Part shown: one piece after another, positions 14,639 through 19,736 of the stretch | Layout of the letters: each line of letters begins with the position of its first letter | Numbering within the stretch: the stretch's first letter is position 1 | NCBI GenBank assembly: GCA_018066145.1 | Contig: JAGHRY010000092.1 | Span: forward strand, 1 to 35,012 | DNA: 35,012 nt | Source: Candidatus Colimorpha merdihippi | Lineage (GTDB): Bacteria; Bacteroidota; Bacteroidia; Bacteroidales; P3 | Direction: 5' to 3' | Position numbers and translations under genes: made by a program | Notes under the pieces: generated by a model | Told to the model about the DNA's origin: nothing | Seen by the model: only the letters and a program-made list of their open reading frames with translations | Database searches by the model: none

Positions 14639-15214
14639 TTATTCGCCAGCCACCTGGGCAAAAGAATGCACCGGGGCTATAGCGTTGATGCGGTCGTGGT
14701 CGTAAAGGTCGGGAAACTCCACCAGGAAGAGGAATTCTTTCACCTTCACCTTATATTCCTTGCCGTCAAGCACCACGGTTTCTCTATTCAGCGCCTCGGC
14801 AATGCCGATGGCGGTGCCGCCGGTGGCGAGGATATCGTCAAAGAACGTCAGCTCAAAGGTGTCGCCATTGGGCTTGCCGGCAGCAATATCGGAAAGACGG
14901 TAATACACATGGTCGGCACCATATTCCTTCATTATTTCCACATCATGCAAGTCGCCCTCGCTGAAGGGGAGCTTGCCTTTTTTGCGAATCGGCACTATAT
15001 TCTGCACCAATTTCGACTGCGTAAGCAGGGGTGCGGCAAAAAAGAAACCGCGAGCCTCCACCGTCACCACATTGGGGCAGTGGGTATGTGCATCAATATC
15101 TCTAACTATCTCATTAAAAGCCTCTTTATTCGACAAAAAAGGCAGTATATCGATAAAGTCTATACCCGGTTTTGGAAAGTCGGGATAATGATTAATTACG
15201 TCTAAATAGTTCAT
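14639..15214 (-). CDS. apt: Adenine phosphoribosyltransferase
   Basis: PDFPKPGIDFIDILPFLSN, VEARGFFFAAPL, FFDDILATGGTAIGIAEAL PRPP-binding motif. Confidence 0.9.
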   Translation of the reverse strand: MNYLDVINHYPDFPKPGIDFIDILPFLSNKEAFNEIVRDIDAHTHCPNVVTVEARGFFFAAPLLTQSKLVQNIVPIRKKGKLPFSEGDLHDVEIMKEYGADHVYYRLSDIAAGKPNGDTFELTFFDDILATGGTAIGIAEALNRETVVLDGKEYKVKVKEFLFLVEFPDLYDHDRINAIAPVHSFAQVAGE

Positions 15215-15237
15215 TCTTTCAACTGTTTTTGAATTTG

Positions 15238-15245
15238 CAAAGATA
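15238..15245 (-). promoter_or_regulatory. -7 element TATCTTTG upstream of apt
   Basis: CAAAGATA on the plus strand, 23 bp upstream of the apt ATG. Confidence 0.5.
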
Positions 15246-15467
15246 CGAAAAATGAGCGAATTGGTAAAATTTTATTTTCACATTCCCGAAAAGTTGATGA
15301 ATAAACGTTACTTTGTCAACGGTAACACTTTCCATCCACCCCCATTCCCCTTCTCACGGGACAATAAAAGAAGAAAACAAAATGTGACACATGGCAAAGA
15401 TTTAATAGTTTTTGACATTCGGAAGCTATATCGAGGAGGAAAAAACGAATATGAAGCCACGCGTACT

Positions 15468-15566
15468 CGCTGCAACTACGCTGCTGCTCCGAAGTAGCTC
15501 CGAGGTAGCTCCGAGGTAAGTCCGACTAGCGGTCGGAGCTACCCCGAAGCTACAGCGAATCTACAG
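15468..15566. repeat. 11-bp-phased degenerate repeat array (copy B), 9 units each starting with CG, partly inverted
   Basis: CG at 15468,15479,15490,15501,15512,15523,15534,15545,15556 (exact 11-bp steps); units include CGCTGCTGCTC, CGAAGTAGCTC, CGAGGTAGCTC, CGGAGCTACCC, CGAAGCTACAG; inverted arms GGTAGCTCCGA (15504-15514) and TCGGAGCTACC (15533-15543). Confidence 0.8.
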
Positions 15567-15652
15567 GGGAATTACATGGTGGTATGGGGGAGCTTTCTAA
15601 TGGTTCGGGCGTGATAGAGGCCATCCCGAGTTGCGGATTTTGGATATTGTGA

Positions 15653-16518
15653 AAAGGGGGTTATCACACCACTCAGATCGCCTCGTTTGAACCCACCGGC
15701 AACGACAAGGTCTCCGTTGACTCCGACCTCCAGATGCATTGGGATGAGAACATACCCAATACAATATATATATACGCTCCAGGATTCAGCTACGAAGCGT
15801 ATGAATTATGGTTTCTTGTAACGCGCCATTATACAGAGTATATACCCACCTCCATTTCTTCAGATAAAAAAACAGCCGTTCTTGAATATTACGATAATCC
15901 AAATGTACAGCCTTTCCCCGCAGACCAGCAAGGCCCATTTTACGCCATAAACATGTTTGGCGGGATATGGCCTGCGCTTGACTCATACATCAATACTGAT
16001 GGATCATTCCATATTGAATCGGCTCATCCAGGCACTAGTTTCAATAATTACAGCTTTATGCCTATGATTGCGCGTGCCGATAACTATGGCCAACTCCCGT
16101 TCAAACATATTTTTGGCATGCTCAAAACTTTTGTAACGGTACCTGATGGTTACACGGTAACTGGTGTTACCCTGATAGGTTTGGTAGGAGTTTATACACC
16201 TGCCACCATAGAAGGGTGTGATGTATCTTGGGATGAAATGGCGACATTACGATATCAAACATCACCAAGGTGGCCCTCCAAGCAAACCAAAGGGAAGACC
16301 TTCGAAACTACCGCTTTAAAGAAGGCAATGGCTATTATTATCTTGCTGCTTGCCCTGGCGACTGGACTGACTTGAGATTCAAAGTGGAAGCTGTAAACTC
16401 CAACCAAAGTCAGGTTGCGTTTGTTAAGACCATGAATCCCAATTCCTCCATTCATCTCGAGCGTGCCGGCATCACCACCCTCAACCTCAACATGACCCCT
16501 GACGACTTGGTTCGATAG
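15653..16518 (+). pseudogene. 5'-truncated, frameshifted fimbrillin-like surface protein gene
   Basis: Coding-quality frame starts without a start codon after the TGA at 15650 (KGGYHTTQIASFEPTGNDKVSVDSDLQMHWDEN...); frame breaks at the AAA run 16236-16238; adding one A joins ...EGCDVSWDE to NGDITISNITKVALQANQREDLRNYRFKEGNGYYYLAACPGDW... Confidence 0.75.
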
Positions 16519-18023: not shown

Positions 18024-19736
18024 TTAGCGGATTACAACCTTCTGGGCGGGGTGGTTGGCGACCTGTACCAAATAGACACCAGTGGTGAGGACAGGTAACG
18101 CTGTAGAGGAATTAGAGGTGCGGAAGGTGGATAGTAGGCGACCCATAGAGTCGAAAATGCGGACACGCTGATTTGAGGTGCCGGTGATTACCACTTGATT
18201 TCCCGAAGTAGAAATACTGTAGTCGCTGGGTTGGACGCTGTCGATACCTTCTGTGCTGTCAAGCGCAAAATAAGCTATCAGCAAGGTGTCGGAAACTACA
18301 GTAAACGTGTACGGATTTGATGTGCTGCCGTCGCTCCAGTGATGGAAATGGTAGCCTGGTGCAGGTGTTGCGCTTACTACTGCTTGTGGATCTTCACAAG
18401 TGGTGGGCTGAGATAGCACAGCTACGGATCCTTGGGCAGTATCATCGCTCTCGACGCTCACTGAGAACACCATACCTTCGACAAAGTTGGTGAAATAATC
18501 CCAATCAACCGAATAGTTCATCATGCAACCGCAAGGTATGTTGACAATGGTTGAGCGACTGCAAGTGAATACATCCGTTCCTAATGAAGGGGATATTGTC
18601 GGCAAAGCGGTTATCTCAAGAATACTGTCACACCCATAGAAGGCAAGGTGGTCGATTCTGGCGACGGAATTGGGGATAATGACGGAGGTGAGACCACTGC
18701 AATCCCGGAAAGCACCCTGGCCTATGTAAGTGACTGAGGTACCGATGGTAACGGAGGTGAGACCACTGCAATTAGAGAAAGTAGAATTGGGGATGTAGGT
18801 GACGGAATTGGGGATGCTGACGGAGGTGAGACCACTGCACCCAGAGAAAGCACTACTGCCGATGGAGGTGACGGAATTGGGGATACTGACGGAGGTGAGG
18901 CCGCTGCAATTACAGAAAGCCCACTGACCGATCGAGGTGACAGAATTGGGGATGCTGACGTAGGTGAGGCCACTACAATCACGGAAAGCCTGGTCGCCGA
19001 TGGAGATGACGGAATTGCCGATGTTGACGGAGGTGAGGCCACTGCAACCACAGAAAGCAGCATAGCCGATAGAGGTGACAGAATTGGGGATGGTGAGGTC
19101 CCCCGTTAGACCATAGCAACCTTCGAAAGCATATCGGTCGATGGAGATGGCGGAATTGGGGATGGTTAGGTTCCCCGTTAGACTATAGCAACCATAGAAA
19201 GCAGACTGGCCGATGGAGATAACGGAATTGGGGATGCTGACGGAGGTGAGGCCACTACATTGAAAGAATGTATGATAACCAATTGTGGTGACGGAATTGG
19301 GGATGATGAGGCTCCCCGTTAGACCAGAGCAACCTTCGAAAGCAGCATAGCCGATGGAAGTGACAGAATTGGGGATGATGAGGCTCCCCATTAGACGAAA
19401 GCAACCTTCGAAAGCAGAATTGCCGATGGAGGTGACGGAATTGGGGATGGTGAGGTTTCCCGTTAGATCATAGCAACCATCGAAAGCGTGATCGCCGATG
19501 GAGGTGACGGAGTAGGTGGTTCCACCATTGTTTACTGAGGAAGGGATGACGAGGTCACCAGGCATAGAGTATCCATACCAATAATACGGAGATGGACCAG
19601 GATAGGTGACGCTGACGGTGGAACCGGAAATGTTGTAATACAGCGTTTGGCCCGAGGGGGCTACGGCACTGAAATCGTAGCCCCATGAAGCGAGAGCCGA
19701 AACTGCGAGGATGAGGGTGAAGACGATTTTTTTCAT
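18024..19736 (-). CDS. BspA-like leucine-rich-repeat surface protein with T9SS-type C-terminal sorting domain
   Basis: Signal peptide, many ~23-aa repeats (IPNSVTSIGxxAFxGCSGLTSVS), C-terminal VRIFDSMGRLLSTF...LTTGVYLVQVANHPAQKVVIR. Confidence 0.9.
   Translation of the reverse strand: MKKIVFTLILAVSALASWGYDFSAVAPSGQTLYYNISGSTVSVTYPGPSPYYWYGYSMPGDLVIPSSVNNGGTTYSVTSIGDHAFDGCYDLTGNLTIPNSVTSIGNSAFEGCFRLMGSLIIPNSVTSIGYAAFEGCSGLTGSLIIPNSVTTIGYHTFFQCSGLTSVSIPNSVISIGQSAFYGCYSLTGNLTIPNSAISIDRYAFEGCYGLTGDLTIPNSVTSIGYAAFCGCSGLTSVNIGNSVISIGDQAFRDCSGLTYVSIPNSVTSIGQWAFCNCSGLTSVSIPNSVTSIGSSAFSGCSGLTSVSIPNSVTYIPNSTFSNCSGLTSVTIGTSVTYIGQGAFRDCSGLTSVIIPNSVARIDHLAFYGCDSILEITALPTISPSLGTDVFTCSRSTIVNIPCGCMMNYSVDWDYFTNFVEGMVFSVSVESDDTAQGSVAVLSQPTTCEDPQAVVSATPAPGYHFHHWSDGSTSNPYTFTVVSDTLLIAYFALDSTEGIDSVQPSDYSISTSGNQVVITGTSNQRVRIFDSMGRLLSTFRTSNSSTALPVLTTGVYLVQVANHPAQKVVIR

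Follow-up and report, generated by a model that had tools for sequence, protein, structure and literature searches.

Bacterial dispersed palindromic repeats are usually taken to be decaying mobile DNA. The STRR heptamers of filamentous cyanobacteria are dispersed intergenic tandem arrays of 7-bp units, the unit sequence of which varies by family, and to our knowledge they have no fixed palindrome of four units, a centre and four units. Regulators of the OmpR/PhoB family and of the CarH/MerR type bind head to tail to tandem sites at an 11-bp pitch upstream of promoters; as far as we know, their operators usually comprise two to a few units at few loci and form no genome-wide dyad family. BrickBuilt of Porphyromonas gingivalis is a MITE/minisatellite, dispersed and intergenic, made of tandem short units and present in 19 non-identical copies, with some locations common to the sister species P. 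gulae; its unit is 23 nt long, with no CG pitch and no dyad inversion, and it has a leader and a tail with IS5-like terminal repeats, GAGACCTTTGCA (PMC4596501). The GTAG- and CGTC-tagged REP/BIME sequences are palindromic and mostly extragenic, and occur in many copies that form species-specific families; a REP is a single hairpin of 20-40 bp with a GTAG or CGTC end tag, and mobilisation of the GTAG class is attributed to RAYT (PMC3733652).

The array described here lies in a window of 35,012 nucleotides (the whole stretch of Candidatus Colimorpha merdihippi DNA that was analysed) and belongs to a set of elements that are a variant of dispersed intergenic repeats: they are real, dispersed and, in a pair of sister species, strongly conserved. 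Recounting of the positions confirmed the observation of an earlier note on this DNA that nine CG dinucleotides follow one another at exact 11-bp steps (15468, 15479, 15490, 15501, 15512, 15523, 15534, 15545 and 15556), and the unit order that it gave, with a switch to the reverse-complement class and the phase kept through the centre, is also correct: one unit class (CGAAGTAGCTC, CGAGGTAGCTC, CGAGGTAAGTC) stands to the left of the centre and its reverse-complement class (CGGAGCTACCC, CGAAGCTACAG) to the right (Table 1). An extra CG is in phase two steps outside the array, at 15446, and a single CG, at 15530, is out of phase. Across the window there are no CG arrays of at least seven at other periods (4 to 39 tried), and when the window was simulated 300 times by a first-order Markov model, the longest in-phase CG run was five, compared with nine in the real sequence. 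Within its family, the window copy is weakly palindromic, less so than the counterparts in relatives, with 30 of 49 arm positions complementary and z-scores for single-strand DNA folding of -2.8 (+ strand) and -3.8 (- strand).

Table 1. Coordinates of the array in the window, of its parts and of the neighbouring features.
Feature	Position	Strand	Details
apt-like gene (adenine phosphoribosyltransferase-like)	14639..15214	-	5' end toward array; PRK02304.1-5, 4.6e-30, below curated cut-off
Probable -7 promoter box of apt-like gene (TAnnTTTGC)	15237..15245	-	31 bp ahead of start codon, ~220 bp from array
Class-B inverted array	15468..15566	.	nine CG-initial 11-bp units; genome copies about 26-28
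Units of window array, left to right			CGCTGCAACTA, CGCTGCTGCTC, CGAAGTAGCTC, CGAGGTAGCTC, CGAGGTAAGTC / centre CGACTAGCGGT / CGGAGCTACCC, CGAAGCTACAG, CGAATCTACAG
Left palindrome arm, imperfect	15471..15514	+	73% complementary to right arm
Dyad centre CGAC-TAGCG-GTCG (13 bp)	15523..15535	.	CG phase continuous through centre
Right palindrome arm, imperfect	15533..15576	+	73% complementary to left arm, over 44 nt
Gene remnant, far side of array	15660..16518	+	5' part apparently missing, frame broken near 16260

The proposal that the array is a member of a dispersed family was borne out by genome-wide pattern, word and array searches, all of which found further copies. A seven-CG pattern has 60 matches (overlapping) in the genome of the window, compared with one match for the reversed control, and a word search together with a search with the window array (the latter yielding about 26 distinct places) puts arrays of this type, class B, at about 26-28 sites. 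The centres of class-B arrays mostly consist of CGAC or CGAG, five variable bases and GTCG or CTCG; the 5-nt core of the dyad varies among copies and the CG...CG spacing of 11 is constant. Only 66% of arm positions in the window's own genome form Watson-Crick pairs, and homology between copies fades within about 240 bp around the array. One contig start (L036:1-247) is a near-perfect inverted repeat of 247 bp centred on a class-B array, which is possibly an assembly fold-back, because many G000 contigs end close to arrays. Other CG-phased arrays, with units CGGGGTTCATG and CGGGGTTCCTA, lie within repeated sequence of 0.4-1.1 kb (L015:3313, L046:3977, L047:2004, L044/L045).

The further claim that the array forms one family with copy A (119-186 of the window) did not hold, copy A being of a TTCGTT-type class and lying inside about 400 bp of homologous sequence of its own, which precedes a small ORF (268-507) with no Pfam or NCBIfam match. 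Homologues of copy A on contigs C152 and C191 are 86-91% identical to it. The unit thought to be shared, CGCTGCTGCT, is confined within class B to the window copy, and thus is weak evidence of kinship between the two copies. Units of the copy A class (TTCGTT/TTCGCT, seven CGs at step 11) were observed at 119-186 of the window, at L041:43 and at L032:2528, and further TTCG-type arrays at L040, L042 and L043.

CG arrays at the 11-bp pitch were present in 25 of the 36 other genomes of the same genus that were first examined, and among 24 genomes from other families one had two matches to the 11-bp CG array pattern. What is common to the arrays of many species of the genus is the geometry, with about four 11-bp units per arm and an 11-bp centre; the unit sequences are unrelated from species to species (CGATTGTTCTT in G028, CGGTAGTATTA in G012, CGCTATATGTA/CGGTATATGTA in both G065 and G077, and the CGGACCATC type in G010). 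The dyad is laid out as CGAT-N5-ATCG in G028 and as CGCTT-N3-AAGCG in G077, and the consensus arms of well-preserved families extend for four units past the centre before similarity fades. The elements have a common terminal sequence, GCCCGTTGT...ACAACGGGC, with a weak continuation, CACCTTCTT...AAGAAGGTG; the G028 elements end in CCGTCTG...CAGACGG. Exceptions to the palindromic design are the families of G010, G016 and G018, which are one-sided or direct and partly or wholly non-palindromic. At L117 and L118 of G010, 11-bp arrays of CGGACCATC recur about every 5-6 kb; one end carries a common GTCCGACTTTTATCGGAC hairpin, and direct arrays of several units are confined to one side.

A period scan that is blind to CG found 80 clusters of period 11 across 1.2 Mb of genus sequence, and 235 kb from other families of the order yielded none; in the genus sample, period 7 was also raised (72 clusters), and periods 13 and 17 gave none. 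Heptamer arrays of the TTTTCAA, GTTTACG, TACCCAC, AGTGAAT and CACTCTC types were observed at L070-L079 (contig C1 of G012), L122-L127 and L130; the heptamer clusters of G012 number 28 in 200 kb and are reminiscent of cyanobacterial STRRs. When 198 genomes from across the order were surveyed for an eight-CG pattern, 11 matched, and at least two of these, from other families (G087 and G168), have, by eye, an inverted geometry like that of the genus arrays; thus, the design is not confined to the genus. A single genome can hold several unit words, some of them without CG, and the high-copy palindromic families are CG-anchored. The candidate role of CG as the sole universal key was rejected, since G012 and G072 carry 11-bp arrays that lack it. 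No description of such elements was found in the open-access literature searched, and an earlier account may exist elsewhere.

The placement of the elements was determined from gene calls made by a simple hexamer method, for the 51 elements that have called neighbours on both sides in G028, G012, G077 and G065. All 51 are intergenic: 32 are in divergent gaps, 17 in co-directional gaps and two in convergent gaps. For comparison, the gaps in these sequences that measure 150 bp or more comprise 75 divergent, 147 co-directional and 27 convergent, and the divergent excess relative to the remaining gaps has a Fisher p of 7e-8. The genome of the window, the contigs of which often end near arrays, gave 26 gene-5' sides versus eight gene-3' sides in a hand count of the 34 determinable sides. 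On 59 of 110 gene-5' sides, a sense copy of the Bacteroidetes-type promoter box motif, TAnnTTTGC, lies in the stretch from the element to the start codon, compared with five of 110 in the antisense orientation and nine of 110 beyond the element. Thus, the usual place of the element is upstream of the promoter and outside the transcript, at a distance from the box that is variable, unlike that of a classical activator site, and this placement points to an action on DNA rather than RNA.

The neighbours of the elements include apt-, serC- and tex-like genes; a suggested link to surface-protein genes found no support. As a measure of whether positions persist across distant species with changed units, there are four reciprocal neighbour pairs in which each of the two genes faces an element, compared with about 1.2 expected by our own calculation, in a biased sample. 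The apt-like gene that faces the array in the window is present in 49 of 59 genomes of the same genus. On the two matters that the earlier note had joined, further copies in the genome and conservation of the locus, the outcomes differ: copies abound genome-wide, and an array adjoining apt in the window's position is absent from all 29 relatives examined; G065 has an array near apt, beyond a neighbouring gene. The remnant gene on the far side of the window array consists of two overlapping ORFs (15734-16375 and 16270-16518) and has no Pfam match and no credible NCBIfam match. Elsewhere in the window (18663-19511), BspA-type leucine-rich repeats are encoded by tandem repeats of 69-72 bp; the protein that contains them has a weak match to a T9SS sorting domain. 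Two serC-like (phosphoserine aminotransferase) proteins of otherwise distant species (G012 C1:57638-58753 and L192:8026-9141) are 99.5% identical, which suggests a recent gene transfer; both genes adjoin an 11-bp array of their own species' type.

The conservation of the elements in place can be estimated from G065 and G077, sister species with 92% DNA identity around apt, in which six orthologous places with an element in both species were aligned. The core of the element, taken from first to last CG, differs at six of 529 positions (98.9% identity), compared with 297 of 2245 intergenic positions (86.8% identity) and 481 of 5640 coding positions (91.5%), in a comparison of one species pair on contigs chosen for carrying arrays, such that losses would be missed, and with CG phase used in detection. 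Five of the six pairs belong to the CGCTATATGTA family, in which orthologues differ by 0-1 nt and the median difference between a given copy and the rest is 2-15 nt. The likeness of orthologues thus does not come from homogenisation of the family, and gene conversion was rejected as its cause because each copy retains its own variant. The variable positions of the CGCTATATGTA family co-vary in both arms (A-T/T-A, C-G/G-C), beyond 300 of 300 shuffles. The sequence comparison, in which the elements of the sister pair are more conserved than protein genes, speaks for a function upstream of promoters that constrains the DNA itself.

Judged from these patterns, the elements probably do a so far undescribed job on DNA. 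The window array would be a copy of a dyad-symmetric site, dispersed through the genome, the action of which is on double-stranded DNA, mostly between divergent genes; in the well-preserved families, about four asymmetric 11-bp units, each of one helical turn and with CG steps as joints, lead away from both sides of an 11-bp centre. A putative DNA-binding protein would occupy successive units head to tail on one face of the helix, the dyad would be where two short filaments come together head to head, and the filament complex would serve the promoters on either side as a boundary between them or as their regulator; from species to species, the unit that is read would be replaced wholesale, and the pitch, the number of units, the dyad and the placement would be retained. 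That two such filaments of a hypothetical protein meet upstream of promoters is, in our estimate, evenly balanced between true and false; the protein binding, the polymerisation and the insulation or regulation are what we infer. Against the model count the variable distance from element to box, the non-palindromic families, the weak symmetry of the window copy and its lack of a counterpart beside apt in relatives, and the coexistence of unit words, because one sequence-specific binder cannot read all of them. Of the two guesses in the earlier note, a protein-binding array is the better one, favoured by the position upstream of promoters and by the 98.9% identity of orthologues, with the binding as its conjectural part. 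The broader proposal of functional boundary or regulatory sites that form a class across the genome, with an architecture that is conserved in the genus and sporadic in the order, a unit word that is replaced per species, and a binder that co-evolves with its sites, is tentative and on balance doubtful.

The other guess, a small non-autonomous mobile element, is still a candidate: target duplications, RAYT (in several of the richest genomes) and a phage or plasmid copy were looked for and not found, yet spread of some kind must have occurred. The corresponding explanation, that the elements are MITE- or REP-like repeats without host function, moved by a transposase in trans and tolerated only where untranscribed, upstream of promoters, is rather unlikely, even though tens of near-identical copies per genome, a species-specific sequence and the inverted termini common to copies would be expected from it, and such repeats are known in Bacteroidetes (BrickBuilt, PMC4596501). 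The inverted repeats at the ends are only part of an element that is inverted over its whole length, and no target duplication of constant length was found at the ends of 19 G077 copies. RAYT (PF01797) was undetected in G028, G016, G019 and G065, whereas genomes in which CG arrays are few or absent do have it, and it was rejected as the mobiliser for the richest genomes; the window array has no phage or plasmid match, and a functionless repeat would not reach 98.9% identity in place with intergenic flanks at 86.8%. Alternatively, the pairing of the arms might be what mainly matters, with cruciforms that the negative supercoiling between divergent promoters would extrude and that would act as an insulator or a sink for supercoils. 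The location of elements between divergent genes, a near-perfect 104-nt palindrome in G077 (-63 kcal/mol, z = -22), and the co-variation of the arms with a centre that is free to vary are consistent with this explanation, which is nevertheless unlikely: pairing needs neither an 11-bp pitch, nor repetition of units, nor 99% identity of orthologues, the arms in the window's genome pair at only 66%, and some families are non-palindromic. SbcD attacks such structures in E. coli; it was present in G077 and G000 and undetected elsewhere, with no clear pattern, and the loss of SbcCD was discarded as a permissive condition for long palindromes, there being no clean association.

A transcribed RNA hairpin (a terminator, leader or small RNA) would account for strong hairpin potential, and the 11-bp pitch is about one turn of A-form RNA; in two families the mismatches of the arms tend by eye to G-U over A-C on one strand, and one G077 element (L191) lies, also by eye, between a promoter-like box and the start codon. 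This explanation is very improbable, since convergent gaps, where terminators would be common, hold two of 51 elements, the promoter box is usually between element and gene, which leaves the element outside that transcript, and some arrays have several units on one side only. At gathering score, Rfam 15 had no matches in the window, and the hairpin gave only sub-threshold matches to microRNA precursors. An intrinsic terminator was rejected as a candidate: two of 51 elements are convergent and 32 of 51 divergent, and the sequence that follows the window array (GGGGAATTACATGG) contains no T run.

The sister pair makes function testable, because its elements evolve more slowly than coding sequence, have their identity copy by copy, and stand in front of promoters. 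If it is true that units turn over genome-wide under a constant architecture, a site and its reader would be turning over in concert, which is rarely seen. There is a fair chance that the elements are a new kind of regulatory or boundary site.

BrickBuilt is the nearest described repeat found, probably from the same phylum, and is likewise dispersed, intergenic and tandem; the unit of the array is 11 bp, not 23, and the clusters of the genus are at period 11 and its harmonic 22, with none at 23. With up to two mismatches, the IS5-like terminal repeat GAGACCNTTGCA does not occur near 15468-15566, and its 11 occurrences in the window compare with 9.1 expected. The elements are like REP/BIME sequences in being palindromic, extragenic, species-specific repeats of many copies. 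They differ from the GTAG class of REP in that the array is about 100 bp of 11-bp units, that GTAG/CTAC is not terminal (it recurs inside units, not at one end), and that RAYT is undetected in several rich genomes; the window copy differs from the CGTC class in having no tag nearby (no CGTC/GACG within 15301-15700), although the G028 elements carry CGTC in their ends. Thus, the elements share their dispersed intergenic nature with BrickBuilt and REP, and have the architecture of neither. They resemble STRRs in a fixed odd unit length and a family-specific unit, and the genus also has 7-bp arrays. Their 11-bp pitch upstream of promoters is that of the operators of OmpR/PhoB-family and CarH/MerR-type regulators; at the arrays, the binder is hypothetical.
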